A stretch of 39,133 nt of DNA from Nanobdellota archaeon (GTDB lineage: Archaea > Nanobdellota > Nanobdellia > SCGC-AAA011-G17 > UBA489): positions 1 to 39,133 of the forward strand of contig JAUYMN010000028.1 in assembly GCA_030699455.1 (NCBI GenBank). Reading direction: 5' to 3'. Every line of letters starts with the position of its first letter. Position 1 is the first letter of the stretch. A model generated the notes under the pieces. It saw only the letters and a program-made list of their open reading frames with translations. It was not told where the DNA came from and searched no databases. The position numbers and the translations under genes are program-made. This document shows positions 14,719-32,653 of this stretch, piece after piece.

Positions 14719-15018
14719 ATGCTTAAACTAAAAAAGATGACTTCTGTATATGACATGAAGGTTTTTACTGATTCCGGTGAGTATTTCGGTGATGTTGAAG
14801 AATCAATCGTAACAATGAATAAGGTATTTGGGTGGAGAATTAGGGCTACTAGGAATTCGTCTCTTTCCAGAGTCTTGGGTGGTGCCAAGGGCGTAATTGT
14901 GCCACATAGACTGGTTAAGGCCGTTGGTGATATTATGGTTATAAGCAAGACAGCCATTCCGGAATATGACGAGATTGGAGAAGATTCTGTTGCAGGCATG
15001 TCCGAACGGGATAATTGA
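14719..15018 (+). CDS. PRC-barrel domain protein
   Basis: Single-domain 99 aa, DMKVFTDSGEYFGDVEE...GWRIRATRNS...IVPHRLVKAVGDIMVIS. Confidence 0.8.
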   Translation: MLKLKKMTSVYDMKVFTDSGEYFGDVEESIVTMNKVFGWRIRATRNSSLSRVLGGAKGVIVPHRLVKAVGDIMVISKTAIPEYDEIGEDSVAGMSERDN

Positions 15019-15050
15019 TTATTATGTGCAATCAAAAGGGGTGCAAATGA

Positions 15051-15593
15051 TTGGTTTCACCATTATATGATGGAATAAATTTCATGAAGTCTTTTGGCAT
15101 ATTTGATGTAGTTCTTCCATTTCTTCTTGTTTTTACTGTTGTTTTTGGAGTTCTTGAAAAAACAAAGATATTTGGCACTGAGGGTGATAAAAAAACCACT
15201 AGAAAAAATCTGAATGCAATGGTGGCATTTGTTGTTGGTTTCTTTGTTGTTGTTGCAACACAGATAGTATATTTAATTCAGACAGCTTTGCCAATTATAA
15301 TGCTGATTTTGGTTTTGGTAATTGCATTCATGATCGTATATGGTTCTACATTGTCTGAGGGAGAAATAGATATATGGAGCCACTTTGGAAAGGGAAGGGG
15401 CTATTTTGCATTTGGCATTATAATCGCAATAATCGCAATTGTTCTTGGTGCCATGGGCATGCTGGGGAGTTTTATAGAATGGTTGTATGCTAATATTAGT
15501 GGAACAATTTTGTCTTCTGCAATACTCTTAGTAATTATAGGTATATTTATGGCAATAGTGCTCAAAGGCAAGAACACAGAGGATAGCAGTTGA
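15051..15593 (+). CDS. Membrane protein, tandem paralog 1 (TTG start)
   Basis: FDVVLPFLLVFTVVFGVLEKTKIFG...NLNAMVAFVVGFF shared with the next two genes. Confidence 0.8.
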   Translation: MVSPLYDGINFMKSFGIFDVVLPFLLVFTVVFGVLEKTKIFGTEGDKKTTRKNLNAMVAFVVGFFVVVATQIVYLIQTALPIIMLILVLVIAFMIVYGSTLSEGEIDIWSHFGKGRGYFAFGIIIAIIAIVLGAMGMLGSFIEWLYANISGTILSSAILLVIIGIFMAIVLKGKNTEDSS

Positions 15594-15645
15594 GAATGAG
15601 AACTAATAAAAAGGAGTTTGAACTGTAATATATAGAGGTGTATGC

Positions 15646-16191
15646 ATGGATTTTTATCAATTGATGGCAAACTTTGATCAAATAGGTGGTTTTGATTTAT
15701 TGCTACCATTTATGTTAGTCTTTACCATAGTTTTTGCTGTTCTTGAAAAAATAAAATTATTTGGCAGTAAAAGCAAAAACATCAATGCAATAGTGTCATT
15801 AGTTGTTTCAATATTCTTTTTGAATAACACCTACTTAATTTTTGTTTTGCAGGGATTTCTACCAAGCGTCGCAATTATACTTATTGTGTTTTTGATGTTC
15901 CTATTAGTGTTTGGTGTATTTTCCGGAGAGGGTGATTTTCAAGGAAAGGCATTGGGGTGGGCTTTTGTTGCATCTTTAATTGCAATTGGCTTTGCATTGT
16001 TTAGTGATATATTTACACCAGGACTGCCAGGAGGAAGCGCTATTTCTCAGTTCTATCGTGCCAATACTTTTCTAATTTGGCTACTAGTGCTTGCAGCAGT
16101 GTTTATTATGTCCGTGATGAAAAGTGACAAGACAAATAGAGGGTCATTCTTTCAGGACATAGCAGATAGCTTTGAAAGAAAAAATAAGTGA
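15646..16191 (+). CDS. Membrane protein, tandem paralog 2
   Basis: FDLLLPFMLVFTIVFAVLEKIKLFG...NINAIVSLVVSIFF. Confidence 0.82.
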   Translation: MDFYQLMANFDQIGGFDLLLPFMLVFTIVFAVLEKIKLFGSKSKNINAIVSLVVSIFFLNNTYLIFVLQGFLPSVAIILIVFLMFLLVFGVFSGEGDFQGKALGWAFVASLIAIGFALFSDIFTPGLPGGSAISQFYRANTFLIWLLVLAAVFIMSVMKSDKTNRGSFFQDIADSFERKNK

Positions 16192-16197
16192 TAAAAA

Positions 16198-16722
16198 ATG
16201 GCAACCATATTAGATGCATCAGGATTTGGGAGCTTATTGGGTGTTGTGTTTACATTTATACTTGTATTTGCTGCAACGTTTGCAGTTATGAAGAAAGTTA
16301 AGTTTTTCGGGAAAGATAACTCAGGTTTGGATGCTATCATGGCATTCGTTGTTGCTTTTTTCACTATCATGATTCCTGAGGCTCAGGTAGTCATATCTTC
16401 ATTTTTGCCATGGATTGCAGTATTTTTTATGGTTATGATTGCTGTTATTATGTTTTTTATGTTTGTTGGTGTCAAAGACGAAACTATAACTGAGAATGTA
16501 TTACATCAGCCATTTTTTATTACCATTGTGGTGGCAGCTATTGTTATAATATTCCTTGTTTCCATGACCAAGGCGTTTGGATCATTCCTGACAATTGGAG
16601 CTGGCTTTGGATTTTGGGAGACTACAAAGAGATTTTTGTTTAGCAGAAGATTTCTGGGACTAATTTTCATGCTATTCGTTGCTGCGTACACTATCTTGTT
16701 TTTGACACAGAAGAAAAGTTAG
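16198..16722 (+). CDS. Membrane protein, tandem paralog 3
   Basis: LGVVFTFILVFAATFAVMKKVKFFGKDNSGLDAIMAFVVAFF. Confidence 0.8.
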   Translation: MATILDASGFGSLLGVVFTFILVFAATFAVMKKVKFFGKDNSGLDAIMAFVVAFFTIMIPEAQVVISSFLPWIAVFFMVMIAVIMFFMFVGVKDETITENVLHQPFFITIVVAAIVIIFLVSMTKAFGSFLTIGAGFGFWETTKRFLFSRRFLGLIFMLFVAAYTILFLTQKKS

Positions 16723-17394
16723 TTATTTTTTTACTGTTTTCATGATACGTTCTAGTTCTTTTACATTGTTTGCCAGTGGATTGATTATGTTTGATAACAG
16801 CTTACCCATAGCTTTTATCTCAATTCCCAAATCAGATGTACTTTCACCATATTCTCTTACCTTTCCAACTACTGAATTTGAAAGATTTTCAAAGCGATTT
16901 TCCAGCCTCATTAACTCTTGTTTTATTGAATCTAAATCATTGCTCACTCTTTCTTTCCATGCAAGCATATCGCCAAACTCCTCACCCATCTTTTGCCACT
17001 TCTCTTCTATTATGGATTCTGCAATCTCTTCAATGTCTTCTGTTGTTGAACCCATTGTCTGGGCAGGATAACTAAAACTCATTTGTTCAGGCATTGTTTG
17101 TGGTTGATACATTCCTTGTGGTCCTGAATTTGGTGATGGTGGCGATACAACCTCTGCTTCTTCCACTGGCTGTTTTTCTTCTGAGTATATTACAGATGGC
17201 TGCAAAATTGGTTCTTCCTTTATTCTTGGTCCTTCTATAGCAATCTTTGCCTGCGATTGATTAAGTGCCTCAGAAATTTGTTGAAAAGAATATCCATCTG
17301 TCTGCAGGCTTTGAATTATCTCGGTATTTGTCTTACCACTCTTCTGCATTTCCATTACTTTTTCTATAGGGGTATCTTCAGGCAGTTTAATCAC
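16723..17394 (-). CDS. Coiled-coil protein with Pro-rich linker, pilus-locus associated (GTG start)
   Basis: 223 aa, heptad-like C-terminal half; 8-bp overlap with the preceding gene. Confidence 0.7.
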   Translation of the reverse strand: MIKLPEDTPIEKVMEMQKSGKTNTEIIQSLQTDGYSFQQISEALNQSQAKIAIEGPRIKEEPILQPSVIYSEEKQPVEEAEVVSPPSPNSGPQGMYQPQTMPEQMSFSYPAQTMGSTTEDIEEIAESIIEEKWQKMGEEFGDMLAWKERVSNDLDSIKQELMRLENRFENLSNSVVGKVREYGESTSDLGIEIKAMGKLLSNIINPLANNVKELERIMKTVKK

Positions 17395-17785
17395 CTCTTT
17401 CTGTTTTTATAGGATAATCTTTTAATTTAAACTTTTCTAATCTTATTTCTAATTGCTCATCTGTTACTAATTTAAGTATATTTAGCATATCTATATATTT
17501 TTCCAGTATTTTTACTTCGTCCTTCTTTGCAAATATCCTCATTTCCTTTACAACGTCTTTTATTACATCCTGGGTGTTGCTCATTCCAAGACTTGTCTTT
17601 TTTGTTTCTGATGAAATTGTTCTAATTTCCTTCATTAATTTTTTATACTCTTCAATCATATTTTGGTTTATTACTAGGAGTCTTTCTGTGAGTATATTAT
17701 ATTTGCTTTCTAAGGCACGTATTCTTGCGTTTAAATCTGCAATTATGTATGCAGGATCTGTTTCGGTGAATTGTGGCTCTGACAT
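17387..17785 (-). CDS. Coiled-coil protein, pilus-locus associated
   Basis: 132 aa with heptad-like pattern, no hydrophobic segment. Confidence 0.7.
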   Translation of the reverse strand: MSEPQFTETDPAYIIADLNARIRALESKYNILTERLLVINQNMIEEYKKLMKEIRTISSETKKTSLGMSNTQDVIKDVVKEMRIFAKKDEVKILEKYIDMLNILKLVTDEQLEIRLEKFKLKDYPIKTERGD

Positions 17786-17878
17786 TTTACCTCTTTCTAA
17801 TATGACTAGTATTACGGCTTATTTAAATACTTTGTTTGAAGGGATAAATTATATAAATTTGGCAGGCAGATATAGATT

Positions 17879-20161
17879 ATGACTACAAAAGAAGAGGGGA
17901 TGTATCAGATTGTTCGTGATGGGGATGAAGAGGTCTTGAAAGTTAACGCAGACTCATGGCCATATACTCCCAGCCTTGAGGATAAGTTTTCTGTGATGGC
18001 AGATGTTGTTGATAAACTAGTAGCATCCCCTTCTGTAAAAAGAGTAATTTTTCATCAGAGAAAAAAATTTGTTTATTCTTATGACCAAGTGCAGATGCTT
18101 ATTGAAATTGCAAATATATATACTCATCTGATAAAGGGCAAAAAAGTTTTAAGCATTTCTGGGTGGGGCTTTGATGAGGTTAGTGCAAGATTTTATGGCG
18201 ACAAGATGGGAGAAATACAGTATCTTGTTTTGAACCTTCTTAGGGGCGATCCTCTCGGAGCATTTGTTGAATCAAAAAGAATATTGAGAGAAGAAAGGAT
18301 ATTAATCAAGAGGGATGTTGATGAGAGAGTTGCACAGGCCAGAAGCAATTATATTTTGTTATTATCTGAAATTGTTGATTTGCTTGAGAAGACTAAAATT
18401 GTACAGATACTAAAAAATAGCATTGATGGATTTCATATAGGCGACCGCAAGCCATACAGGGAAGTTTTTAGAGCAGCAGTAACTCCAGATTTCATATATA
18501 CACGGCTAAGATCTAATCCTCCATTAGATGGCGAAGAGCTTGACTTCTATAAAGTGGGTGATAGTGAAGTGAGCATATTCAGAATGCCGGGAGATATTAA
18601 AACATACTACCATTCAGTTCCGATTGAGTTTAAGCTTAATGAAGATGAATATGAATTACTGGACATAGCAAAAAATGTTCTTGCAGGGCACAAACCACGG
18701 AATGAAGAATTTATGAATCCAGATAAGATGCGTGCTACATTTTATAACATTGGGAAGGATTTGCTTGGAGAACTTGCAAAAAATAAAGGATATGATATTT
18801 CTTATGAACGTATTGGAGAACTTGCAAAAATATTAGTGAGGTACACTGTTGGTTTTGGACTAATTGAAATATTGCTTGCTGACCAAAATGTTCAGGATGT
18901 AACAATTAACAGCCCCGTTGGTGAAAGTCCGATGTACCTGGTTCATCAGGAATATGGTGAGTGTTATACTAATATTGTTCCAAGTTACGATGATGCTGAA
19001 AGCTGGGCAACAAAATTCAGATTGATAAGTGGAAGACCCTTAGACGAGGCTAATCCAGTTTTGGATACTGAGTTAAATGTTCCTGGCGGAAGAAGCAGGG
19101 TGGCTGTCATGACAAGACCACTTAGTCCCAAAGGCCTTGCCTTTGCCATGAGAAGACATAGGGATAGACCATGGACCCTGCCATTATTCATAAATAATAG
19201 GATGATTAGTCCTCTTGGTGCAGGTTTAGTTAGTTTTTTGATTGATGGTGCAAGAACGATGCTGGTTGCAGGTACAAGGAGTAGTGGTAAGACGAGCCTT
19301 CTTGGAAGTTTTATGGTAGATATTATGAGGAAGTACAGGATAATTACAATAGAGGATACTTTAGAACTTCCAGTTAAATACTTGCGACAATTAGGATATA
19401 ACATACAGAACATGAAAGTTAGATCTGCCCTAACAACTGGTGGTTCTGAAATGTCTGCAGATGATGGGATAAGGACAAGCTTAAGACTTGGAGACAGTAG
19501 TCTGATTATTGGAGAAGTAAGGAGTGTTGAAGCAAAAGCATTGTATGAAGCAATGAGGACTGGTGCACTTGCAAATGTCGTTGCAGGCACAATACATGGT
19601 GCTGATCCTTATGGCGTTTATGATAGGGTTGTGAATGACCTTAATGTTCCAAAGACAAGTTTTAAGGCTACAGATATAATCACAGTTGCAAATCCTGTTA
19701 AAAGTGCCGATGGCATTAATTCATGGAAAAGAGTTTTACAAATAACAGAAGTTAGGAAACATTGGAGCGATGATCCACTAAGAGAAAGGGGTTTTGTAGA
19801 TTTATTAAAGTATGATGCAAAAAGGGATGAACTGTTGCCTACTGCTGATTTATTAAATGGAGAAAGTGAAGTTGTCAAAGCTGTTGCTGGCAATGTAAGA
19901 GAATGGGCAGGCAATTGGGATGCTGTTTGGGAAAATATATTACTAAGGTCTAGAATGAAACAAGTATTAGTGGAATATTCAAATAAGACGGGGAACATGG
20001 AATTATTAGAATCTAATTTTGTTGTGGCGTCCAATGATGTTTTTCACAGACTGATTGAACAGATTAAGGGGGAAGTTGGTTCTATTGATAACAAAAGGAT
20101 ATTTTTTGAATGGAATGAATGGGTTAAGAAAAATATTAAGTTTGCTAAAAATAAGACTTGA
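17879..20161 (+). CDS. Type II/IV secretion ATPase (TadA/VirB11/GspE-like)
   Basis: Walker A VAGTRSSGKTSLL, ITIEDTLELP Asp box, LIIGEVRS Walker B, GTIHGADP His box. Confidence 0.95.
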   Translation: MTTKEEGMYQIVRDGDEEVLKVNADSWPYTPSLEDKFSVMADVVDKLVASPSVKRVIFHQRKKFVYSYDQVQMLIEIANIYTHLIKGKKVLSISGWGFDEVSARFYGDKMGEIQYLVLNLLRGDPLGAFVESKRILREERILIKRDVDERVAQARSNYILLLSEIVDLLEKTKIVQILKNSIDGFHIGDRKPYREVFRAAVTPDFIYTRLRSNPPLDGEELDFYKVGDSEVSIFRMPGDIKTYYHSVPIEFKLNEDEYELLDIAKNVLAGHKPRNEEFMNPDKMRATFYNIGKDLLGELAKNKGYDISYERIGELAKILVRYTVGFGLIEILLADQNVQDVTINSPVGESPMYLVHQEYGECYTNIVPSYDDAESWATKFRLISGRPLDEANPVLDTELNVPGGRSRVAVMTRPLSPKGLAFAMRRHRDRPWTLPLFINNRMISPLGAGLVSFLIDGARTMLVAGTRSSGKTSLLGSFMVDIMRKYRIITIEDTLELPVKYLRQLGYNIQNMKVRSALTTGGSEMSADDGIRTSLRLGDSSLIIGEVRSVEAKALYEAMRTGALANVVAGTIHGADPYGVYDRVVNDLNVPKTSFKATDIITVANPVKSADGINSWKRVLQITEVRKHWSDDPLRERGFVDLLKYDAKRDELLPTADLLNGESEVVKAVAGNVREWAGNWDAVWENILLRSRMKQVLVEYSNKTGNMELLESNFVVASNDVFHRLIEQIKGEVGSIDNKRIFFEWNEWVKKNIKFAKNKT

Positions 20162-20176
20162 TTGAGGTAAATATTT

Positions 20177-22321
20177 ATGGCTAGGAAAGATGTTGATGAT
20201 ATAATTGATAAGTATGAACATAAACTTGAAGATGAGTATGGGGATGGATATGTTGAAAATTTTGAACCTGTATTAATGAATAAGGATTATGAAGTTTTTC
20301 GTTCTGAGGTTTTGGAGAGCAAGGTAACTAACTATGAAAGGTGGTGTAATGTTGCTGAGAATATAATAAAAGTTAATCCCTCTGAAAAAGACCTGCCTAA
20401 GTTGGAGGAGAGTATTAGGGTTGCACACTTAAATGTTACCCCTCAATCTGCAGCCAGCCTCGGCGCTTTATGTGGCATTTTATTGATTTTTTTTGGACTG
20501 CTCCTTTTTGGTCTTGGCTATGCCCTTGGAATGGTATTTTATTTTTTTCCAATATTTTTATTAATTGCTGGGGCGATTGTGATAAAGCCAATAGGAAACA
20601 TTCCAATATACCTTGCAAATAAATGGAGGCTTGAAGCCAGTAACCAGATGGTTTTATGTATTTTGTATATTGTTATGTACATGAGGCATACCAGTAATTT
20701 AGAACATGCTGTAAGATTTGCAGCTGAACATGTTGGCCCTCCGCTGGGACTTGACTTAAAAAAAGTTTTTTGGGATATTGAAACTCAGAGGTTTTTTAGC
20801 ATCAAAGAAAGCTTGGATTATTATCTTGAAAGCTGGAGAGAATATAATCTGGAATTTGTTGAGGCATTTCATCTCATTGAAGGCAGTTTGTATGAACCTA
20901 ATAATGAGAGAAGAATTGGGTTACTCGAGAAATCTCTTGAGGTAATGCTTGATGGAACATATAACAAAATGCTTCATTATGCACATAATCTGAAAGGGCC
21001 GGTTACATTGTTGTATATGCTTGGCGTTATTCTGCCAATACTCGGACTTGTTATTTTTCCTTTAGTTGGTAGCTTTTTGGGTGGTGCAATAAGGTGGTAT
21101 CATCTTGCATTGCTTTACAATATTGTTTTGCCAATTATCTTAATTTCTATGGGCAATAATATGCTTGCGAAGAGGCCAACAGGATATGGCGAAAGTGAAG
21201 TTCTAAAAACTAATCCAGAGTTCAAAATTTACGAACAGTGGGTCGTTAATGACAGACTTATCCCAATAAGTCCAAAAGCTTTTGGAATTTTCCTTGCATT
21301 GGTTATTGGCTTTTTTGGATTTTTGCCATTGCTGATGCCGCTTATTAGCCCAGGATATGATTTTGAAATACCTGGTCTTGGTCTTTTTTTAGATTTTAAG
21401 GATGGAAACGGCCCTTATGGTGTTGGATCATTGATTGCAGGGATGCTGATTCCATTAGGAATGACTGTGGGAATATCCACTTATTATGGAATAAAAACTA
21501 AAAGATTAATCAAAATAAAAAAACAAGTCGATGACCTCGAGGAAGAATTTAGCGGTGCAATATTTCAGCTTGGAAACAGGATTGGAGATGGCATCCCCTC
21601 TGAAATGGCATTTGGTGAAGTTGCCGAAACTATGAGTGGCACACCGACTGGAAAATTTTTTACTGCTGTAAATAGAAACATCAGAAAATTAGGTTATGGA
21701 ATGAAAAAAGCAATTTTTGATCCTCGTGTTGGCGCAATATTGTTATTTCCCAGCAACCTGATACAGAGCACTATGAAAGTTCTTGTCCAAAGCTCCAATA
21801 AGAGTCCGCAGGTGGTTAGCACAAGCTTGATAACAATCAGCAAGTACATTGACAGAATAAAGCAAGTGAATGAAAGGCTGAAGGATTTGCTTGCTGACAT
21901 TCTAAGTAGCATGATAAGCCAGATTAATTTTTTGACACCATTGATTGCAGGTATTGTTGTTGGTGTTGGAAGTATGGTTACAACAATAATTAACAAGCTA
22001 GGCACTGCTTTTGAAACTTTAGGTTCTGGTGCAGGTGATTCGCCCACAAATATAGCTACTCTTGCAAACATATTAAATGTAAAGGATGCTATTCCAGGAT
22101 ATTTTTTTCAGCTCGTTGTTGGAATTTATGTTCTGGAGATAACAATAATATTAACAATTCTTAGTACCAGTATTGAAAGGGGGGCCGATGTGACAACTAC
22201 AAGAAACAGAATAGGCAAGAATGTTAAGAGAAGCATGACATTCTATTTTATTGTATCTTTAATTGGTGTTATCTTGTTTAACTTATTGGCAAATGCTGTA
22301 AGCTTTGTCCCTTCCCCATAA
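20177..22321 (+). CDS. TadC/ArlJ-like pilus platform protein with two T2SSF-like halves
   Basis: 714 aa, two membrane halves; LEEEFSGAIFQLGNRIGDGIPSEMAF typical of T2SSF; follows the ATPase. Confidence 0.88.
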   Translation: MARKDVDDIIDKYEHKLEDEYGDGYVENFEPVLMNKDYEVFRSEVLESKVTNYERWCNVAENIIKVNPSEKDLPKLEESIRVAHLNVTPQSAASLGALCGILLIFFGLLLFGLGYALGMVFYFFPIFLLIAGAIVIKPIGNIPIYLANKWRLEASNQMVLCILYIVMYMRHTSNLEHAVRFAAEHVGPPLGLDLKKVFWDIETQRFFSIKESLDYYLESWREYNLEFVEAFHLIEGSLYEPNNERRIGLLEKSLEVMLDGTYNKMLHYAHNLKGPVTLLYMLGVILPILGLVIFPLVGSFLGGAIRWYHLALLYNIVLPIILISMGNNMLAKRPTGYGESEVLKTNPEFKIYEQWVVNDRLIPISPKAFGIFLALVIGFFGFLPLLMPLISPGYDFEIPGLGLFLDFKDGNGPYGVGSLIAGMLIPLGMTVGISTYYGIKTKRLIKIKKQVDDLEEEFSGAIFQLGNRIGDGIPSEMAFGEVAETMSGTPTGKFFTAVNRNIRKLGYGMKKAIFDPRVGAILLFPSNLIQSTMKVLVQSSNKSPQVVSTSLITISKYIDRIKQVNERLKDLLADILSSMISQINFLTPLIAGIVVGVGSMVTTIINKLGTAFETLGSGAGDSPTNIATLANILNVKDAIPGYFFQLVVGIYVLEITIILTILSTSIERGADVTTTRNRIGKNVKRSMTFYFIVSLIGVILFNLLANAVSFVPSP

Positions 22322-22377
22322 GAAAGGATATTTAAATAGTGGGAAATGTTATAAATTCATAAATTAGGTGTATTTTC

Positions 22378-24714
22378 ATGATAAAAGGGGCTGGCAAGTA
22401 CTTTTCAAAAAATATTTTGTTTTACTTATTTGCTACATTTTTTTTAGCCAGCACTTTTTTTGCAAAGAGCGTTAATGCAGTAGTATATCTTGGTCAGACA
22501 TATACTGGCATGGGTATTGGTGGATATTATTATGGCGATATTCAAAATCTTTATTATTCTTATCCTGGGTGGATTGATTTTATATTATTTTTGATGATAT
22601 TTACATCGCTTGGAAAATTTGTTTTTGGAAAGAAGTTTAAAGATAACAGCTCTGCAGCAAATGGACTTTCTCTTTCACTTGGGGTTGCACTCTCTCTTGG
22701 GATGGTATTATGGGAAAGTAGCACTGGTGTTTTTCTGTTAAAAAATATGGCTGTGCTCGCTCTAGGACTTGGCATTGTTGCAATATTTGTTTTATTATAC
22801 CTTGTTTTTAGAAAATGGATGAGAATAGGCCAATTGCTTTCCCTTATTCTCGCATTGGTTGCTTCTTACTTCTTATGGCATTTTGTTGCAAGATATGTTG
22901 TTGGCATGGGTCCAGTTGATTTTGTTAGGTATGTTATGGGCGGATTTAATTTTGATGCCAATGAAATCATAAACTGGGCAGTTATGATTATATTTTTTGG
23001 TGGATTACTTGCTTTAATGGGGATGGGTATTAAAAATGCAGGTAAGGCAATACCTGCCAAGAATAATAAAAATTCGAGTTTATTTGGAGAAGGGCAGAAA
23101 AATTCAGTTGTTGATAATACAGGCACTGCAACGCCAGTAAAAGGTAGCAGTAAGTGGCGATGGCCTTTTAGAAAAAAGCAAAAACCAGCCGTTGATAAGA
23201 AAAGTACTACGCCACCAGTAAAAGACAATGATGATACGGACGTTGCACCGTTGCCTGAACCGTTGCCAATAGCTGATTCTGAAGTAATTTTAGATCCAAA
23301 ACAAAAAAAGATAACTTGTGACAGGATTAAACATCTTGTAAGGGTTGCTGATTATGCCAAAGAAGCAGTCAATGAGTCTGTTGTTATTGTTGATAAGCTG
23401 AGGGGAGAGATAAATATGTTGAATCATGCAATTAGCGTAGATCCTTCTCTTACAGACAAGGCGAGAATTTTACAAGATAAGTTTATGGAAATTAACAATA
23501 CTCTCAACTCATTAAGAGTTGGACTAATCAATCAGGCAACACCAATAAAGGTATTTTCTGGAATGGAACTATGGATAAATCATATCAAAACTTATTTTGA
23601 TAAAAACATCTATTCAGTTATATCAAATGTTCAATCTCTTAATGCTTACGTTGGTGAAATTGAAAATACATTAAAACTGCTCGATATTGCTTTTGGCAAA
23701 ACTTCTGAAAAATCTGGCAAGATGAAACGGCTTGGGCAATCAATCAGAATCATTATTTCCGCCAGTGAGCCATATAAAAAAATGTTTAGACCATCGGTTG
23801 TTGATATGAATCTTAACCAATACAAAAACTTTCTTGTAGGGCTTTGGAATACATATGGGTGTGGAGATACTCCGAAACCACCACAACTAGCATTAGCACC
23901 ACCAAGAGATACTCCGAAACCACCACAACTAGCATTAGCAGCACCACCAGCACAACTAGCATTAGCAGCACCACCAGCTACCCCCTTACTTGAGAATAAA
24001 GCAGAAGATGGTGCTGGCATGAATCAACCTCCAAAAAATGAATTGCCTGAGATGGGAGACAGGGAAGAGATAAACAAAGATATTGACAGAATAGAAGAAA
24101 TAATCGGCAAAGGCATTCGTTCTTTGCCACGCGAAAAAGGTAGCCTTTTTGGAAGGGGAAGTAACAGAGATACAACAATTGCAAACTTTGCATATAAACT
24201 TGTTTTTTCCAGAGAAACTAATCTGTCAAGAGAAATTGGAGAATTCCTATTGATAGAAATCAATAAAATTAAAGGTATTATCGGCGTTTTTATGAACTCT
24301 GAAAGTGTTGACAAAAATTCCAAGGAATTTAATAAAATGATGCAAGTTTATGAGGATATTATTCGTGCTGAGCCACTGCTTAAAAAACTTAGCAAGGGCA
24401 TTAGGTCAAGAGAAATACTAAATTCTATGAGGGTTGCATATCAACAAGATTTTGCATATGATAATAAGGTTGCACAGGTATATAAAACAAGATTTAACGA
24501 ACCACTCGCACGTGCTAGCTGGGATGAAGCATTATCAAAAATATTTTCTGATCCAGTTAAGCTCGAATTTTTATTAATCAATAACCAAGGGAACAAGGGG
24601 CTAACAATACTTTACACTTATTTTAGTAGGGCCTATGGATCTTTAAGAATATTAGACAGAAACTTTAGAAGGATGGCAAAAGCAATAACTGCCTTGAAGA
24701 GGCAGATAAGATGA
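22378..24714 (+). CDS. Large membrane protein with N-terminal TM region, Pro/Ala repeat linker and helical C-terminus
   Basis: 778 aa, signal-like N-terminus then TM helices; tandem repeats near 23864-23978. Confidence 0.75.
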   Translation: MIKGAGKYFSKNILFYLFATFFLASTFFAKSVNAVVYLGQTYTGMGIGGYYYGDIQNLYYSYPGWIDFILFLMIFTSLGKFVFGKKFKDNSSAANGLSLSLGVALSLGMVLWESSTGVFLLKNMAVLALGLGIVAIFVLLYLVFRKWMRIGQLLSLILALVASYFLWHFVARYVVGMGPVDFVRYVMGGFNFDANEIINWAVMIIFFGGLLALMGMGIKNAGKAIPAKNNKNSSLFGEGQKNSVVDNTGTATPVKGSSKWRWPFRKKQKPAVDKKSTTPPVKDNDDTDVAPLPEPLPIADSEVILDPKQKKITCDRIKHLVRVADYAKEAVNESVVIVDKLRGEINMLNHAISVDPSLTDKARILQDKFMEINNTLNSLRVGLINQATPIKVFSGMELWINHIKTYFDKNIYSVISNVQSLNAYVGEIENTLKLLDIAFGKTSEKSGKMKRLGQSIRIIISASEPYKKMFRPSVVDMNLNQYKNFLVGLWNTYGCGDTPKPPQLALAPPRDTPKPPQLALAAPPAQLALAAPPATPLLENKAEDGAGMNQPPKNELPEMGDREEINKDIDRIEEIIGKGIRSLPREKGSLFGRGSNRDTTIANFAYKLVFSRETNLSREIGEFLLIEINKIKGIIGVFMNSESVDKNSKEFNKMMQVYEDIIRAEPLLKKLSKGIRSREILNSMRVAYQQDFAYDNKVAQVYKTRFNEPLARASWDEALSKIFSDPVKLEFLLINNQGNKGLTILYTYFSRAYGSLRILDRNFRRMAKAITALKRQIR
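23864..23978 (+). repeat. In-frame tandem repeats: 42-bp period x2, then perfect 27-bp x2
   Basis: GAGATACTCCGAAACCACCACAACTAGCATTAGCA at 23864-23898 and 23906-23940; ACAACTAGCATTAGCAGCACCACCAGC at 23925-23951 and 23952-23978. Confidence 0.95.
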
Positions 24715-25168: not shown

Positions 25169-25169
25169 A

Positions 25170-25439
25170 ATGCTAAGCGGATTTATGATGAGGGGAATTG
25201 ATCTTATAAATGGCAGTCCGTTGTTTGCTCTCTCCCCATTTTTATTATATGTTTTTATTTTCTGGGAGCTTTTTTGGAAAGGCATAGCTTTGTGGAAGAC
25301 AGGAAGGCACAATCAGATGGGCTGGTTCATTGCCATTTTACTGGTTAACTCTTTAGGCATATTACCAATAATCTATCTTTTGTTTTTTCAAAAAAGTGGA
25401 AGAATAATATCCAGCAAGAAACACAAAAAAAGAAAATGA
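25170..25439 (+). CDS. DUF5652-like small membrane protein
   Basis: SPFLLYVFIFWELFWKGIALWKTGRHNQMGWFIAILLVNSLGILPIIYLLFF. Confidence 0.75.
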   Translation: MLSGFMMRGIDLINGSPLFALSPFLLYVFIFWELFWKGIALWKTGRHNQMGWFIAILLVNSLGILPIIYLLFFQKSGRIISSKKHKKRK

Positions 25440-25440
25440 A

Positions 25441-25986
25441 TTATTTTTTATCATGTATATGGTGTTTTCCAGTTGCTTTTTCATAATATGGGAGTATTTT
25501 TAGGAGTCTAGGTACTCTTGTTATAGGTCTTAGAAAACGTAGTGCAAATCTTGAACGTGAAAACTTTGCTACACTTTCTGATTCTTTTATGATTTTATTT
25601 GCCTCTGCATCAATTGCACCAAGCTCACTGAGTCCTATACCTGCATGCAGTATCGACTGTCCTTCTTTCAGTGTATCTGAAACTCTAAAAATTAGATATA
25701 CCTCTTCTACTGCCCTTAAGAATAGGTAGAAGGGGAATACTGCAAGTATGTCTAACCAATATAATTTTATGAATTTCTTTATTTTTCTTATTCTGATGTA
25801 TTTGAAAACCAAATCAACAGCGAATGTTGTGACTATTATATAATCTAAGATAGTGATTTCTAAATGGTAATCTAATGCTAGCTCATGAAAGAATAATGAA
25901 ATGATTATTATAATCATCAGGAGAACAACCATGTATGGCACAATGGTGTCTACAAAGCGTTCTACCTTGTGAAACCCCTTTTTCAT
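25441..25986 (-). CDS. Voltage-sensor-like / ion-transport-like membrane protein without obvious pore domain
   Basis: Four-helix arrangement; S3-like YWLDILAVFPFYLFL; Arg-periodic RSRFALRFLRPITRVPRLLK. Confidence 0.5.
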   Translation of the reverse strand: MKKGFHKVERFVDTIVPYMVVLLMIIIIISLFFHELALDYHLEITILDYIIVTTFAVDLVFKYIRIRKIKKFIKLYWLDILAVFPFYLFLRAVEEVYLIFRVSDTLKEGQSILHAGIGLSELGAIDAEANKIIKESESVAKFSRSRFALRFLRPITRVPRLLKILPYYEKATGKHHIHDKK

Positions 25987-26059
25987 ATTTTGAGCCTTGT
26001 CTCTTCTTTATTTAAAACTACTGGAAAGGCTTAAATAATTTTGAGATTGATTTCTATGC

Positions 26060-26173
26060 ATGCAGAGAGGTTTTATTGAATCAAGGGCACTGATAATCCT
26101 TATTTTGGTTATTATATTTGCAATAGTTACGTATTCAATTGTTACAGGAGTGTTAAATGAAATTCTCGGGTAA
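26060..26173 (+). CDS. 37-aa single-TM prepilin-like peptide (not in ORF track)
   Basis: MQRGFIESRALIILILVIIFAIVTYSIVTGVLNEILG; overlaps next gene; TATA-like TTAAATAATTTT upstream. Confidence 0.6.
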   Translation: MQRGFIESRALIILILVIIFAIVTYSIVTGVLNEILG

Positions 26174-27041
26174 AAATGGGACGCTGATACAAACAACAAT
26201 CATAGTCTTAATACTCGCTATAATAACTTTGGTTTTTGCAGGGATGCTGATTGCAAAAGTCAGGGGTGTTGCAGAGCTTACTGCTGAGGACAAAATTTGT
26301 CTTGCCAGTGTTACAATTGCCGCTAAAACAAAATTAGCCGGAACAGGTTTTTTTTCTACGGATTTGAAATGCCCAACCAGAGAATTTAATTCTGAGGCAC
26401 AAAGCAAGGAGCAAGTTAAACTGGAATTGGCAACTGAAATGTATAGATGCTGGGCAAAGTATGGAAGCGGTAAAATTGATTTTATCAGCAATTTAGATGC
26501 TGGACCAAGCGATACACATTGTTTTATATGCTCAAATATTTATTTTGATAATGATGACAATCTGCCAAGCTATGTGGAATTTGTAAGCTACCTCGACAAT
26601 ACTAAACTGCCCGGACAGGATATTACTTTTGTTGAGTCTTTTACTGGAACCAAGGGATCTAGTTTGAAGTTTGGCGGTGATTCTGGGATTTCCACTGAGA
26701 AGATAGTTGGCAATGTTGAAAATCCTCTTTATGTTGTTTTTAGGGTGAATAAATATAATAGTGATAATGAAATGATAGCCAACTTTTTTACAGGAGACTT
26801 TGATTCAGCAGGGGTTCCAACTGATGCAGCTGTTTATGGTGTAGCTTCCAGTAAAATTGGGAAAAAAGCTGCAACTATGATAGGTGGCAAGCTTGGAACT
26901 AAATTCATTCCAGGTGCTGGGCAGGTAATGCTGTTTGTGGATATGGCAACTTCTTTTTTCTGGGCTGATGAAATGAGACCTTCATTGGCAGTTTATAATG
27001 TTGGCGATATGGTAGAGGTATGTGATACACTTGGCAAATAA
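26157..27041 (+). CDS. Pilin-like protein with N-terminal TM
   Basis: GKNG|TLIQTTIIVLILAIITLVFAGML N-terminus and Cys-containing ectodomain. Confidence 0.65.
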   Translation: MKFSGKNGTLIQTTIIVLILAIITLVFAGMLIAKVRGVAELTAEDKICLASVTIAAKTKLAGTGFFSTDLKCPTREFNSEAQSKEQVKLELATEMYRCWAKYGSGKIDFISNLDAGPSDTHCFICSNIYFDNDDNLPSYVEFVSYLDNTKLPGQDITFVESFTGTKGSSLKFGGDSGISTEKIVGNVENPLYVVFRVNKYNSDNEMIANFFTGDFDSAGVPTDAAVYGVASSKIGKKAATMIGGKLGTKFIPGAGQVMLFVDMATSFFWADEMRPSLAVYNVGDMVEVCDTLGK

Positions 27042-27189
27042 AAAAGGCACCGAGCTTATTGGAAATGAAATAGCCTTATGGCTGATTGCAATACTTATGT
27101 TATTCATTTTGATTTACCTGATTAGTGGAGGATGGGAGAAGATGCTCGATTTGGTCGATAAATTTGAAAGTGGGGTGTTGTTTGGATGA
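27022..27189 (+). CDS. Short prepilin-like protein (GTG start; TTG 27031 also possible; not in ORF track)
   Basis: ...NKKG|TELIGNEIALWLIAILMLFILIYLISGGWEKMLDLVDKFESGVLFG; overlaps both neighbours. Confidence 0.6.
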   Translation: MIHLANKKGTELIGNEIALWLIAILMLFILIYLISGGWEKMLDLVDKFESGVLFG

Positions 27190-27329
27190 TATTTAAAAAG
27201 AAAGGTGAACAATTGACTTTGCAAACCATAGTAATCTTTATTTTTATAATTGTTGCAATACTCATGGCATTTATTTTTGCAGGGGATGTTATTCAGGCCG
27301 GACAGTTATTTTTAAGTATGTTTAATTAG
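27186..27329 (+). CDS. 47-aa prepilin-like protein (not in ORF track)
   Basis: MIFKKKG|EQLTLQTIVIFIFIIVAILMAFIFAGDVIQAGQLFLSMFN; ATGA overlap with preceding gene. Confidence 0.68.
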   Translation: MIFKKKGEQLTLQTIVIFIFIIVAILMAFIFAGDVIQAGQLFLSMFN

Positions 27330-27359
27330 CATAATGTTTATAAGTGCCTTAGGGCTGTT

Positions 27360-29027
27360 ATGAACATGAGTAATATGAATAAGGTGGGGGCGCAATTGAC
27401 ACTTCAGACCGTTATTGTTTTTTTATTATTGGTGATTTTGACTGTCTCGGTTTTGCTTTTTGGCGGTGAAGCTTTTGGGAAAGAAAGAAGTATTGTTATG
27501 GATGATTTGAAAGAGCTGGAGGCTAATAAAAAGTTTCTAAAACCATGGGGCGATCTTACTGATGATACTAAGAAAGAGTTAACTAAAAATAATTTTACTT
27601 TAGCATTGAAAAAAATGCTTGATGAAATTGATAAAAAGATATCAGATGCTCGTTCTCTTGCACAAAAGGATGATTTATCAAGTGCTAATAATCTTTTGAA
27701 TTCTGCGGAGGCAAGGGTTAAAGAAGTAATTGGTGCAATAGACAAAAAAAGAGAGGAAGAAAAAGATGAGTTCAACTTGAAATATGTTTCTGAAAAAGAG
27801 AAAGCCAAACAATACCAAATACAAATTGGAAGCTTGAAAAAAGAATATGCTTCAAAAACGTCCTTAAAAAAAGTTTTAGATGATATCGAGTCAGGAAAAC
27901 TTACTGGTGAAGATGCTATTTCTGAACTTGAAAAAAATTTGGCTGGTAACACTGGTACAATTGATAGTGCAAAAATAAGAGTTGAAATATTCTTTAATAA
28001 ATACACCGATTCTAATGCTGGAAACGTTAAAAATTTTAGAGATGAACAAATGGATGGAATTACTTCTTCGCTAACTAAAGCAGAAATAGAATATGCTATT
28101 GGATTAATTTATGAAGATGAACGGTCAGGATTAGATAGGAGTGTTATTAGTTTATATGCAGAACCACAGTTTAGAGATGTTTTTAGAACGTATCTTGACG
28201 AAATACCATTTGCTCCAGAAGCAGCCTATAAGGTTGCTAAGTATGAGACAGATAAAAAGAAACAGTTTAGTTTATTGAAAGTGTGGTGGGAAAAATATCA
28301 TGAAAAAAAATATATTGGAGGAAATTATGAATTGATTGAAGAGGATATCTTAAGTTTTGTTAAGAAAGGCTATTCTGAGTATGATATTTATATGGAGCTA
28401 CATGGATTTGTTTGGGAATTTGATCTATTTAATAATAATGATTGTGCTGAGTTTTGCTCTTATTTTGGAGAACCTTTTACAGATCCAAAAAAACGCAATG
28501 TTGATTGTCTAGATAGTATCAGTGCAACCCCATTAACTATGACCTGTGAGCAGTATCCTGAAAAGAATGAGCAAAGGGGGTATAAAGAAGTTACTTTTGA
28601 TATATCTACTGGGAGGTATAAACATTCTGACCCTCCTTCTTTCTCTGTTACAAATTGTGAATATGGACCTAAAGTTGATGGAATAAATGGCGGTTATGTT
28701 GCCGGTGTTTATGATAAGGCTCCTGTTTGGATGGAATTTAAAGTTGTTGATAAATTAACTAATGAGGAGGTTTGCAATACTTATAGTGGGAAAAATTCAT
28801 TAAGTTATAAGACTGTAGATAGTTTTAAAAATGTGGCTAATGAGTATGGAATATTTCCTACAAGTGGTAATTGTGAGGCTATAATATTTGCTATGTATGC
28901 AGGTAAGGCTGGAAGTAGACTATTTGAGGGGACTGGTGTGTTTGAGAATAATGATAAAAATAACGTTGAGAAAGCAAGTGCAAAAGTTTATTTCCCGATT
29001 TGTGATGCATATCATAGTGGATCTTAA
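27360..29027 (+). CDS. Large pilin-like protein
   Basis: NKVG|AQLTLQTVIVFLLLVILTVSVLLF, then coiled coil and Cys-containing domain; TATA-like box upstream. Confidence 0.7.
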   Translation: MNMSNMNKVGAQLTLQTVIVFLLLVILTVSVLLFGGEAFGKERSIVMDDLKELEANKKFLKPWGDLTDDTKKELTKNNFTLALKKMLDEIDKKISDARSLAQKDDLSSANNLLNSAEARVKEVIGAIDKKREEEKDEFNLKYVSEKEKAKQYQIQIGSLKKEYASKTSLKKVLDDIESGKLTGEDAISELEKNLAGNTGTIDSAKIRVEIFFNKYTDSNAGNVKNFRDEQMDGITSSLTKAEIEYAIGLIYEDERSGLDRSVISLYAEPQFRDVFRTYLDEIPFAPEAAYKVAKYETDKKKQFSLLKVWWEKYHEKKYIGGNYELIEEDILSFVKKGYSEYDIYMELHGFVWEFDLFNNNDCAEFCSYFGEPFTDPKKRNVDCLDSISATPLTMTCEQYPEKNEQRGYKEVTFDISTGRYKHSDPPSFSVTNCEYGPKVDGINGGYVAGVYDKAPVWMEFKVVDKLTNEEVCNTYSGKNSLSYKTVDSFKNVANEYGIFPTSGNCEAIIFAMYAGKAGSRLFEGTGVFENNDKNNVEKASAKVYFPICDAYHSGS

Positions 29028-29062
29028 AATAAAAATGCTTATATATTCAAAACAAGGCGTAA

Positions 29063-29515
29063 ATGATGATGGAAAGAAGTGAAAGTTTCAGAAAATTTTT
29101 ATCTGATAAAAGAGGGGTGGAATTAACGCTTAATACGGTCATTATTGCAATTTTAATCGTTCTTGTCTTAATTGTTATCATTGGGTTTTTTTTGGGTGGA
29201 ACAAACAAGATGAAGGATACTATTTTCAGAATTTTTGCTGGTGGAACTGCTGGAACTGACATAGCTATTGCAGTGGAACAGTGTATTAGCTATTGTAACC
29301 AAGCGGAAGATTGGAGTCCTACATTGCAACAGACTTCTCCATATTGCAAGTTTAGGTTTAGACTGGATATGAATAATGATGGTGAGGCTGATAAATCGGG
29401 AGATACAGGTGTAGGTGATGGTTATGGTGATAATACAGCCAAAGATAAAGAATATATTAAGTATGGGTGTGATGATGAACCTTTGAATGTGCAGTGCGAA
29501 TTTAAGTGTGCATAA
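29063..29515 (+). CDS. Pilin-like protein
   Basis: SDKRG|VELTLNTVIIAILIVLVLIVIIGFFLGG. Confidence 0.72.
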   Translation: MMMERSESFRKFLSDKRGVELTLNTVIIAILIVLVLIVIIGFFLGGTNKMKDTIFRIFAGGTAGTDIAIAVEQCISYCNQAEDWSPTLQQTSPYCKFRFRLDMNNDGEADKSGDTGVGDGYGDNTAKDKEYIKYGCDDEPLNVQCEFKCA

Positions 29516-29673
29516 TAATTTTATATTAACTAATTTGGTTTTGTTGAGAGTTTCAAGTTTAGCATAAAAAACCATATTTTTTTGATATTATAAATTTTCA
29601 GGAATAATAAAAACTAGATTTTCAACAGCAGCTAATTCCATAAGTTTTTATATTTGTGCTTGTTTTTTCTGAT

Positions 29674-30192
29674 ATGGCTGTTTATAGGAAGGGGAGTGTT
29701 TCTGAAATGTCTGGCTGGACCATAGCGATAGTATATGGCATTGCAGTTTCTATTATTCTTTTTGGGATTGTAAATGGTCTTTGGGGGCTATTGGGAAAAT
29801 CACAGATTGACAATACTTCATATAACTCTTTTGTGGATGTATATAACTCTATATCTAGATTAAGTGAAGGTGGTGGCGAGAATTCCAATATCCCAATTGA
29901 GTTGAAAGATGATTTTGCTGTTGTCGGATTTAGCAAAGATTCTAGCAGGGTTACATGTTCCAGTACACCTATAATAAAACCCGACAATTGTGATGGTGCC
30001 TGCTTATGTATCTGTGAGGTGATTGCTGAAGAAAGCATGTGCCTGACCGAGAGGGCTAAATGTCTGAACTATGGTTCTAGCGATATAGATTTTGAAGGGG
30101 GATGTAATATTGTTCTTGGCACAGGAAATTTTAATTATGTTCGGGTGGCAAACCATGATGGAAAAATCAGCATCAACGATCCAATTGCATGA
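29674..30192 (+). CDS. Pilin-like Cys-rich protein (start ATG 29674 preferred)
   Basis: VYRKG|SVSEMSGWTIAIVYGIAVSIILFG; TATA-like TTTTTATATT about 25 bp upstream of ATG 29674. Confidence 0.68.
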   Translation: MAVYRKGSVSEMSGWTIAIVYGIAVSIILFGIVNGLWGLLGKSQIDNTSYNSFVDVYNSISRLSEGGGENSNIPIELKDDFAVVGFSKDSSRVTCSSTPIIKPDNCDGACLCICEVIAEESMCLTERAKCLNYGSSDIDFEGGCNIVLGTGNFNYVRVANHDGKISINDPIA

Positions 30193-30213
30193 GAGCAACC
30201 AATATAAACTTCT

Positions 30214-30225
30214 AACTTATAAGTT
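30214..30225. promoter_or_regulatory. Perfect 12-bp palindrome AACTTATAAGTT just before the start codon
   Basis: Lies between AATATAAA (about 30200) and ATG 30231. Confidence 0.4.
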
Positions 30226-30230
30226 GTTAT

Positions 30231-30635
30231 ATGAATAAAAGAGGGACTATTCAATGGATTTTTATGATTAATCTTTTTTTAGTGTTGATCATAATGTTTG
30301 CATTACTAAGCAGGATTAATGCCGCAAAGGATGATACAGGATATAACTTAGAGTATTACACGAGGGATATAGCATACGGCACCGAAGTTATGCTTTGGTC
30401 TGATGCCAACGAAATTAGCTATATTTACCCTATGAAGAAAGGTTATGGGCTTGTAATAGATTCTGATGCGGGGAAGGTTTTTGCAAGAAAAGGATCATCA
30501 TACGATGACTTTGATTTTAGAGTAAGGGATGGTTTTACTATTGAAGCCGAACCAATAAAAAAAGAAGGATATGAAAACCCTTACATAATTGTCAAAAAAC
30601 CAAAGGGGGGTGATTCTTCTGATCTTCTTGGATAA
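30231..30635 (+). CDS. Pilin-like protein
   Basis: MNKRG|TIQWIFMINLFLVLIIMFALL. Confidence 0.68.
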   Translation: MNKRGTIQWIFMINLFLVLIIMFALLSRINAAKDDTGYNLEYYTRDIAYGTEVMLWSDANEISYIYPMKKGYGLVIDSDAGKVFARKGSSYDDFDFRVRDGFTIEAEPIKKEGYENPYIIVKKPKGGDSSDLLG

Positions 30636-31062
30636 GAAAGGACAAACAAGCTCAGGGCAACTTGCAAATCAGCTTGTTCTTTGGCCTTTTTATACAGTGG
30701 TGATAGCTGTTGCCGCATTGATTATTGTTATATCATTAAGTTATTATTTGAACAGAGATGTTCAGGATCATGATTTGCAGTTTTTGGTTGCCAGAAACTA
30801 TATTGAAAAGAATTTTGTTTTTGGAGGAGAAACCAGCAAGAAAGATTTAACTAATTTTGAAGGTGTTAACGATTTGAAATTTGGAGTAAAAATACAAGCT
30901 GGCAATGAAAATTATTTTGCCAACAGAAAATTGTATGATGATTATGACTTATGTGGAATAAGCAATAGTCCATTTTATTGCAGTGATGAGATGAAGGACT
31001 TTTATCTTGTTGATGGAGAACTTAAAATAATTAAAATAAATATGGTGGCTAAGTATGAATAA
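30610..31062 (+). CDS. Pilin-like protein (GTG start proposed)
   Basis: LDKKG|QTSSGQLANQLVLWPFYTVVIAVAALIIVISL; overlaps preceding gene. Confidence 0.68.
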   Translation: MILLIFLDKKGQTSSGQLANQLVLWPFYTVVIAVAALIIVISLSYYLNRDVQDHDLQFLVARNYIEKNFVFGGETSKKDLTNFEGVNDLKFGVKIQAGNENYFANRKLYDDYDLCGISNSPFYCSDEMKDFYLVDGELKIIKINMVAKYE

Positions 31063-31552
31063 AAAAGGCATTATTGGATTTGAGGAAGTTGCTTCCCTTA
31101 TACTTATCATGGTTGCTGTTTTAGTCTTTGTGCTTATTTTTGGGTTTAATCTTTTACTGGAAAGCGCAAAAAATAGTGTCTTTGGAAGTGGTTCTTCCGT
31201 AGATGAAACAATAACTGCTTTAAGTGTGGATGGTAGCAGACAGCAGGCATTTGCCCTTTCCAAAACACCGATCAACGGAATGCTCATGGGCGATTTGATT
31301 GTTAAATCTGTGGAAAGTGGAGATTATACACTGCTGACTAAAAAAATGAATGAGATGCTTGGAGATGGAATGTACTGGGAGTTGGAAGTTTATGATAACC
31401 TTAAGGGAGGAAATGCTTTAATTGATTTAGGAAAAGAAGGATGGATTGCCAAAGACTGGAAAACAGACTTTAAGGAAATGACCATTCCAGGGTATGGCAA
31501 ATATACCAGCCTGAAGCTGAACATCAAAATAGCAGAAGGTGTTGCTTTGTGA
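31055..31552 (+). CDS. Pilin-like protein with Glu at +5
   Basis: MNKKG|IIGFEEVASLILIMVAVLVFVLIFGF; overlaps preceding gene by 8 bp. Confidence 0.72.
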   Translation: MNKKGIIGFEEVASLILIMVAVLVFVLIFGFNLLLESAKNSVFGSGSSVDETITALSVDGSRQQAFALSKTPINGMLMGDLIVKSVESGDYTLLTKKMNEMLGDGMYWELEVYDNLKGGNALIDLGKEGWIAKDWKTDFKEMTIPGYGKYTSLKLNIKIAEGVAL

Positions 31553-31588
31553 TGAGATTATGATTAAAGTGTATCAATTGGAAGAATA

Positions 31589-32386
31589 ATGAAATCCAGG
31601 AAAGGTCTGCTGATGACAGGGGTAAGTATTGTTTTTGTAGTATTACTTATTTATACTGCTGTATTGTTTTTTATTGAGCGGGAAGACATTAATGAAAGGC
31701 TTGTATTAGGTGGGATGGTTATAGATGTTTTAGCTGCCGAGGAAAGTTCTGGCATTGCAGAGTATTATCTTGAAAAATCAGGACAGTATGCCCTGTTGAA
31801 ATCTGTTAAAAAGACAACTGAAGAAGGTTTTTTGGATGAAAATTGTGAAGCATATTATTCTGGTGAAGGATGTAAAATCAATGTTTATGATTTTGCAGAT
31901 AGTGTAAAGAAAAATTTGCCAGGATATTTTGAAGAGTACATTATTGCAAACAAGTTAGATATGGATGTTAAAAAATATAAATTTGATGTTATTGTTGCTG
32001 GCGGAAAGGTGATGTTATATGCTGAAACTTCTGAAAAAATTGATTTTGGCGATGCTTCTGTGAGGGAAATGGAATATAAAAAATCTGGAAATTTCAACAC
32101 TGAATTGAATTTTGCATTTTCTCAATATCTTGAGGCTATTGAATCTATTGAAAGTAATATCCTTTGTTTATTGGAATCTGAAGATGAGCAGGTCAAGGAA
32201 GATTTAGGCAGTTCTTCAACTAAAAAAAATCCGAAAGAATGTCTAGATGATAAATTTTTTAATGTTAAAAAGAAAAATGGAATTCTAAGCTTTAAATATA
32301 AAATGAAAGGAGCTTTATTTGAGGAAAATCTTGATGTTAAGCTTGATGTTAACTTAAAAGGTCTTGGTGAAGAGGCAAATTTATAG
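31589..32386 (+). CDS. Pilin-like protein
   Basis: MKSRKG|LLMTGVSIVFVVLLIYTAVLFF. Confidence 0.68.
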   Translation: MKSRKGLLMTGVSIVFVVLLIYTAVLFFIEREDINERLVLGGMVIDVLAAEESSGIAEYYLEKSGQYALLKSVKKTTEEGFLDENCEAYYSGEGCKINVYDFADSVKKNLPGYFEEYIIANKLDMDVKKYKFDVIVAGGKVMLYAETSEKIDFGDASVREMEYKKSGNFNTELNFAFSQYLEAIESIESNILCLLESEDEQVKEDLGSSSTKKNPKECLDDKFFNVKKKNGILSFKYKMKGALFEENLDVKLDVNLKGLGEEANL

Positions 32387-32392
32387 TTTTAT

Positions 32393-32653
32393 ATGTTTGA
32401 TATAATTAGATATGCTGAAAGAGTTGTGAAGATTAGAACTTATAAAATCGTAGATTCCAAAAATCCTATGTTTAAATTATATACAAACAGAACATGTGTT
32501 TCTCTGCCAGGCACCGGTCCAACATTATGCAGCCCCCTTGGATCCGCATGTGATAATTCTGCGGAGAGACATAGCGTATGCATGAATAACCAGTGTTTGG
32601 CTATGCCAGGACCAGGACCAAATCAATGCAATCCAGTCGGCTCTAACTGTTAG
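32393..32653 (+). CDS. Small protein with duplicated Cys/Pro/Gly module
   Basis: CVSLPGTGPTLCSPLGSAC and CLAMPGPGPNQCNPVGSNC. Confidence 0.6.
   Translation: MFDIIRYAERVVKIRTYKIVDSKNPMFKLYTNRTCVSLPGTGPTLCSPLGSACDNSAERHSVCMNNQCLAMPGPGPNQCNPVGSNC

Follow-up and report, generated by a model that had tools for sequence, protein, structure and literature searches.

How DPANN archaea, nearly all of which are thought to depend on other cells, hold or draw on their partners is an open question, and a gene cluster of one Nanobdellota archaeon raises it in concrete form: what kind of machine does it encode, and which other archaea carry it? The window analysed here is the whole of contig C12 (JAUYMN010000028.1; 39,133 nucleotides) of a 770-kb assembly, 83% complete, whose closest named relative is Candidatus Woesearchaeota archaeon SI054_bin47 (ATPase 78% identical). 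An earlier note, made from the sequence alone, had described at positions 14719-32653 a divergent machine resembling type IV pili. The locus almost certainly encodes an assembly machine for type IV filaments, and we consider it likely that the machine, with the parts described below, was inherited by most cluster 2 DPANN archaea.

In the type IV filament superfamily, pilins cleaved by a peptidase are lifted from the membrane by an ATPase acting on a platform protein. The window carries such an ATPase, a platform protein of the T2SSF/TadC fold and prepilins which, by our own motif rule, have class III signal peptides. The archaellin family (PF01917) was found in none of 41 relatives searched alongside archaeal controls, all controls being positive; judged from these sequence data, the window system is not an archaellum. 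The earlier description of a divergent machine of type IV pilus kind in a small-genome DPANN archaeon, other than an archaellum, is thus upheld by the identity of ATPase and platform, the class III junctions and the lack of archaellin.

Distribution of the core cassette

The core cassette consists of three membrane paralogs, two coiled-coil genes on the opposite strand, the ATPase and a fused platform, and it recurs in the order TM-TM-(TM)-CC-CC-ATPase-platform (TM, transmembrane paralog; CC, coiled-coil protein) in Woese-, Pace-, Nanohalo- and Aenigmarchaeota. The inventory of open reading frames (ORFs) in the earlier note agrees with the genes found, which are syntenic in relatives, and the comparison across DPANN genomes that it had proposed gave a gene order kept across phyla. 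Far from being peculiar to this genome, the system is near-universal in the phylum, and Hamm 2024 and Makarova 2019 had already described it in outline. In our phylum sample of 194 genomes, 186 of them of high quality, the family of the membrane paralogs was present in 189 (181 of the 186), usually in three copies each, and a prepilin peptidase in 190.

Assembly ATPase and fused double platform

The window ATPase matches T2SSE in the Pfam scan (E=3e-14), and 19 orthologs keep, without exception, the catalytic residues of its Walker A (GTRSSGKTS), Asp box (EDT), Walker B (GEVRS) and His box (TIHG). Its nearest solved structures are the archaeal protein 2oap, CpaF and FlaI. The same Pfam scan gave no match to the PilB3_C domain (PF23989). 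In the tree, it groups with its DPANN orthologs at full support, the euryarchaeal long ATPases falling outside, and this clade is separate from both other ATPases of its own genome, encoded on contigs C5 and C20.

Nine relatives carry intein-like insertions in the ATPase gene (L055, L057, L058, L059, L060, L061, L140, L145 and L148), mostly of about 500-700 amino acids (aa) and of 167 aa in L140, which start with S or C and finish with HN. Three insertion points were recognised, all in the active site: after Walker A K471, Asp-box D493 and Walker B S549. A literature search by chosen terms found no report of inteins in such an ATPase. The RadA genes of L043, L048, L059 and L061 encode 697-842 aa as against the usual 330 aa or so, which suggests an intein there too.

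The platform protein is hardly recognisable by sequence profile, a Pfam T2SSF match being obtained for one of 21 orthologs and none for the other 20. Its AlphaFold model (predicted local distance difference test, pLDDT, 78) was aligned by Foldseek to the cytoplasmic domains of EpsF/OutF with a probability of 0.99-1.00 over about 120 columns at a root-mean-square deviation of about 3 A, the E-values being weak (1.5-1.9). By hhalign, both halves align to the classical TadC of the order (E 1e-4 and 5e-5; control 0.35). Since the model matches EpsF/OutF and each half aligns to TadC, the protein had correctly been named a TadC-like double platform. Direct homology between the two halves was tried as well; hhalign between them gives nothing, though each matches classical TadC.

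Membrane triplet and coiled-coil pair

The three tandem membrane proteins at 15051-16722, proposed earlier as paralogs, belong to a single family, whose members have about 180 aa and five hydrophobic segments. In a search across phyla of 33 genomes reached through named loci, this family was detected in 23, including every genome tested of Pacearchaeota, Nanohalo-, Aenigm- and Micrarchaeota and most Nanoarchaeota/Parvarchaeota records, and was missing in ten (Diapherotrites 2, Hadarchaea 2, Thermoplasmata 2, another euryarchaeote 1, ANME-2 2 and Nanoarchaeota 1). A tree of 102 sequences separates the three gene positions near-cleanly into lineages (5 changes versus a shuffled mean of 48.7). 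Because the three positions form separate lineages, the triplet predates the sampled lineages and its order has been kept; this pattern fits subunits that may have distinct places in one complex. The AlphaFold2 model of the family (pLDDT 85) has no match in PDB, so that assignment to a known fold was rejected.

The coiled-coil pair that had been noted was likewise confirmed, at 16723-17785 on the minus strand. Among about 108 loci compared, protein A occurs in 74 and protein B in 70, and homologs of both are found in the Nanohaloarchaea loci L111, L117, L121 and L133. A hydrophobic segment was detected in none of 69 homologs of A and none of 70 homologs of B, and the pair is predicted to form cytoplasmic scaffolds of the motor, whereas published work has suggested attachment spikes on the surface. 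Kinship of protein B to ArlD/E was also considered; no such Pfam match is listed among 24 members.

We regard it as probable that the membrane triplet and the coiled-coil pair are functional parts of the filament machine. A further proposal is tentative and to us rather doubtful: that the triplet is an obligate hetero-oligomeric core, specific to cluster 2 DPANN and with no described counterpart in pilus, archaellum or secretion systems, and that the machine is an ancestral device for contact or uptake, kept through genome reduction.

Prepilin array and prepilin peptidase

Between the platform and the gene for RPA, an ordered set of about ten genes is kept across the order. It begins with a Cys-rich protein of ~270 aa, followed by a mini prepilin of ~50 aa, a variable large protein and slot D (~120-150 aa, with Cys); then come, often, another mini prepilin of ~60 aa and about five more genes, the last of ~250 aa. 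The array seen earlier in the window was confirmed, with a count of ten prepilin-like genes (26157-32386) in place of about 11.

Prepilin junctions were searched for with our own regular expression, [KR][GA]/hydrophobic, and not with a trained predictor. Across the order 102 of 181 array genes were positive, against 9 of the 321 genes outside the array in these loci, a contrast that is inflated because the array consists of proteins with an N-terminal TM segment. For such proteins of one complete relative the figures are 5/9 in the array and 30/111 elsewhere, the 111 including prepilins of its other pilus systems. In the alignment of slot D the K-R/K-G junction hardly varies and the cysteines do not vary at all. 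The slot D profile hits 80 of 85 genomes of the class, the shared prepilin N-terminus contributing part of the score. In Aenigmarchaeota, many genes after the platform start with M-K-G and then a hydrophobic stretch.

The earlier note saw no prepilin peptidase because the contig ended. One A24 peptidase is encoded in the genome, at the start of contig C25 (PF01478 at G000:C25:732-1082), with a GGGD motif and an upstream Asp (DIKTREIPDW). A HIT-family gene is split across both contig ends, its N-terminal part closing the window (38974-39133) and its C-terminal part lying at G000:C25:1-240, and C12 and C25 are therefore adjacent; alignment to an intact relative indicates that about 50 codons are missing in between. 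In eight relatives the prepilins are followed by RPA, RadA and the peptidase in the same order, in most of them with EF1B and HIT standing after RadA and ahead of the peptidase. The split gene and this order place the peptidase just past the window end, very probably within about 1.5 kb of it. The absence of a peptidase from the genome, which had been named as a reason to abandon the pilus interpretation, is thus disproved. Two Pacearchaeota loci have a peptidase-family gene in or beside the prepilin array.

Relation to known systems

Two conserved pilus loci with coiled-coil genes were described across cluster 2 DPANN, with a CpaF ATPase, TadC and coiled-coil genes together, in Nanohalo-, Woese-, Pace-, Nano- and Aenigmarchaeota (Hamm 2024, PMC11291902, Fig. 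4). The window locus has the same combination of ATPase, TadC and adjoining coiled-coil genes, and is probably Locus 2 of that study, as matched by gene content and description and not by sequence; unlike it, the membrane triplet, the ordered prepilin array and the linked peptidase go unmentioned in the passages of that text on the loci. The DPANN 'dark matter' pilin islands (Makarova 2019, PMC6393860, Fig. 2A) likewise bring together a secretion ATPase, TadC and numerous proteins that bear signals but belong to unknown families; they are treated in the relevant passages in general terms only. The classification of archaeal secretion ATPases by Makarova 2016, in which the word Woesearchaeota is absent, reported a failure to find pilins for the nanoarchaeal members of one clade. 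The locus class is therefore already in print in outline, as far as the relevant parts of Hamm 2024 and Makarova 2019 describe it; new here are the near-obligate triplet, the fixed prepilin order, the peptidase linkage, the evidence for cytoplasmic coiled-coil proteins and the active-site inteins in the ATPases of relatives.

Euryarchaeal pairs of long ATPase and fused platform (Hadarchaea, Thermoplasmata and ANME-2 contigs; Haloterrigena pHTUR04) are similar in the ATPase (about 650-860 aa, identity 36-39%) and in the mostly adjoining platform of about 510-700 aa, but lie outside the DPANN ATPase clade and lack the triplet family in the genomes searched. On plasmid pHTUR04 (L152) the long ATPase and a ~600-aa 'secretion system protein', related to the window pair, stand without annotated pilins nearby. 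The archaellum motor (ArlI/ArlJ, ArlC/D/E and ArlH) shares the superfamily of ATPase and platform and, by analogy, soluble coiled-coil partners; it differs in its archaellin and in the KaiC-like ArlH, no counterpart of which is present in the array. The Haloferax PilB3/PilC3 adhesion pilus also uses an archaeal type IV pilus ATPase and platform, but PilB3_C matches the ATPase of contig C20 (E=1e-4) and not that of the window. Contig C20 further encodes split TadC and pilins of KKGISPLIATVLL type, while contig C5 carries another system, in which an ATPase and a KaiC-like gene accompany split TadC proteins and prepilins that begin with KRGQ. Both are classical archaeal pilus systems, and the window machine is distinct from them.

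Accessory and flanking genes

The genes of the locus are listed in Table 1. The 778-aa membrane protein and the genes at 24749-25986 are found in the genus and a few relatives only, and are absent from most relatives; the genes at 22.4-26.0 kb are lineage-specific additions, and the 778-aa protein, which had been counted into the locus, is not part of its core. The idea that its N-terminal membrane part adds a fourth member to the TM paralogs was rejected, the hhalign probability being 13%. Between the accessory genes lies a genus-restricted 181-aa membrane protein resembling a voltage-sensor domain (25441-25986, minus strand).

The span first given for the locus holds for the main genes inside it, the genes at its two ends being candidate parts only. 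These are the PRC-barrel gene (14719-15018), which, together with a TraB-like gene upstream, is a conserved neighbour, and an ORF for an 86-aa Cys-rich protein (32393-32653, plus strand) directly after the last prepilin, for which no homolog was found among the relatives examined. Farther downstream, a 390-aa ORF resembling LAGLIDADG homing endonucleases (37233-38405, minus strand) overlaps at its 3' end a tRNA gene (37238-37309, minus strand).

Table 1. Genes of the filament locus and its conserved neighbour in the window (a slash marks the prepilin junction)
Feature	Description	Position	Strand	Evidence
TM paralog 1	180 aa, 5 hydrophobic segments, DPANN-specific family	15051..15593	+	family count, tree, AlphaFold2
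TM paralog 2	181 aa, same family as TM paralog 1	15646..16191	+	homology, tree
TM paralog 3	174 aa, same family as TM paralog 1	16198..16722	+	homology, tree
Coiled-coil protein A	223 aa, divergent, no signal peptide/TM, predicted cytoplasmic	16723..17394	-	alignment
Coiled-coil protein B	132 aa, KYIN-WNP-FVTE-like motif conserved at the C-terminus, predicted cytoplasmic	17387..17785	-	alignment
Assembly ATPase	760 aa, archaeal TadA/VirB11 family	17879..20161	+	T2SSE match, catalytic motifs intact, tree
Fused double platform	714 aa, TadC/FlaJ type	20177..22321	+	AlphaFold/Foldseek, hhalign
Accessory membrane protein	778 aa, proline-rich repeat and coiled region, lineage-restricted	22378..24714	+	
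Prepilin-like slot A	294 aa, 6 Cys; related gene in 33 loci	26157..27041	+	
Mini prepilin	55 aa, NKKG/TELIGNEIALW, almost without ectodomain	27022..27189	+	
Mini prepilin	47 aa, KKKG/EQLTLQT	27186..27329	+	
Large prepilin-like protein	555 aa, NKVG/AQLTLQT, 8 Cys	27360..29027	+	
Prepilin slot D	150 aa, DKRG/VELTLNT, invariant Cys, best-conserved prepilin	29063..29515	+	
Prepilin-like	178 aa, YRKG/SVSEMSG	29656..30192	+	
Prepilin-like	134 aa, NKRG/TIQWIF	30231..30635	+	
Prepilin-like	157 aa, LDKKG/QTSSGQ; true start probably downstream of listed one	30589..31062	+	
Prepilin-like	165 aa, NKKG/IIGFEEV	31055..31552	+	
Prepilin-like	265 aa, SRKG/LLMTGV; last of fixed array, then RPA	31589..32386	+	
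RPA	single-stranded DNA-binding OB protein, conserved neighbour; candidate part of machine only	32699..33697	+	synteny

Proposed mechanism, alternatives and meaning

From these components, whose identity, synteny and near-universal occurrence, including that of the peptidase, were established by computation, we infer a filament assembled as follows. Prepilins with class III signal peptides would enter the membrane, and the syntenic aspartic peptidase encoded at the start of C25 would cut them after the [KR]G junction. The hexameric ATPase would then drive the fused double TadC platform, pushing subunits into the filament, the body of which would probably consist of mini prepilins together with the slot D pilin of 120-150 aa, the longer Cys-rich prepilins being putative minor or tip subunits. 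Linkage, topology and co-conservation suggest a hetero-oligomer of the three TM paralogs, set in the membrane around or below the platform, with the coiled-coil pair serving as a cytoplasmic scaffold at the ATPase, as ArlC/D/E in the archaellum. Attachment to surfaces or contact with a host is the likeliest use of the filament and has, in our judgement, an even chance of being the main role. Several observations weigh against the proposal as a whole. The prepilin ectodomains match no family, and the two other pilus systems of the genome could do the attaching. In several Woesearchaeota lineages the pilin genes lie apart from the motor; unlinked pilin-like genes had been named beforehand as a sign against a common machine, and they occur in these lineages, whereas the genes are linked through a large part of the order as well as in further DPANN phyla.

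Among the alternatives, a DNA-uptake pilus would bind environmental or host DNA and pass the incoming strand to the single-strand-binding and RadA proteins encoded next door. DPANN archaea are without much of nucleotide synthesis. Across the order the prepilins are followed by RPA and, about 2 kb after it, by RadA, while in other Woesearchaeota (L081, L082, L085, L087, L088, L089 and L108) an SSB-like small OB-fold gene adjoins that of the platform on the other strand. Because of these neighbours we keep this role under consideration, and a part in DNA import has been put forward for the pili of Nanohaloarchaeota and Undinarchaeota (PMC9563170). However, RPA and RadA are general replication and repair genes, the upstream part of the window also carries Orc1- and PolD-like ORFs, and the link to RPA and RadA was not seen in Nanohalo- or Aenigmarchaeota loci, so that we hold DNA uptake to be unlikely. 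ComEC was tried as a marker and is uninformative: no protein of this family was found in the 41 relatives, which is a weak point since the archaeal controls lack it as well. A type II-like pseudopilus that exports surface or lytic proteins, with no long filament, would agree with the many different prepilins, the large Cys-rich ectodomains and the lack of tandem copies of one major pilin; it is nevertheless quite unlikely: slot D, which is conserved, and the mini prepilins, which lack an ectodomain, resemble filament formers, and no gene for a substrate or exit channel was found.

The likeness of the coiled-coil proteins to reovirus sigma-1, their predicted coiled-coil folds and their proteomic detection in Ca. 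Nha. antarcticus, as given in the pertinent parts of Hamm 2024 (PMC11291902), would suit exported attachment spikes and a locus for their display; this is improbable in view of the 0/139 homologs with a hydrophobic segment or N-terminal signal and of the divergent position of the genes next to the motor ATPase. A chance cluster of genes whose pilin-like N-termini are no more than common signal anchors finds some support in one complete relative, where the junction rule also marks 30 of 111 further proteins that have one N-terminal TM segment. The constant arrangement and joint conservation of the genes throughout the order, the five positives among nine array genes of that same relative and the peptidase syntenic with the locus make it extremely improbable.

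For the filament assembly machine, which we prefer, sequence comparison makes the locus a strong candidate for how DPANN archaea touch or feed on other cells. Present in about 97% of the sampled genomes of a streamlined phylum and built in part from DPANN-only components, it is a natural first target for that question. The parts list of motor, platform, triplet, coiled-coil pair, prepilin slots and peptidase makes the vague annotation 'type IV pili present' testable, with subunits that can be tested in cultivated Nanohaloarchaeota and Nanobdellota.

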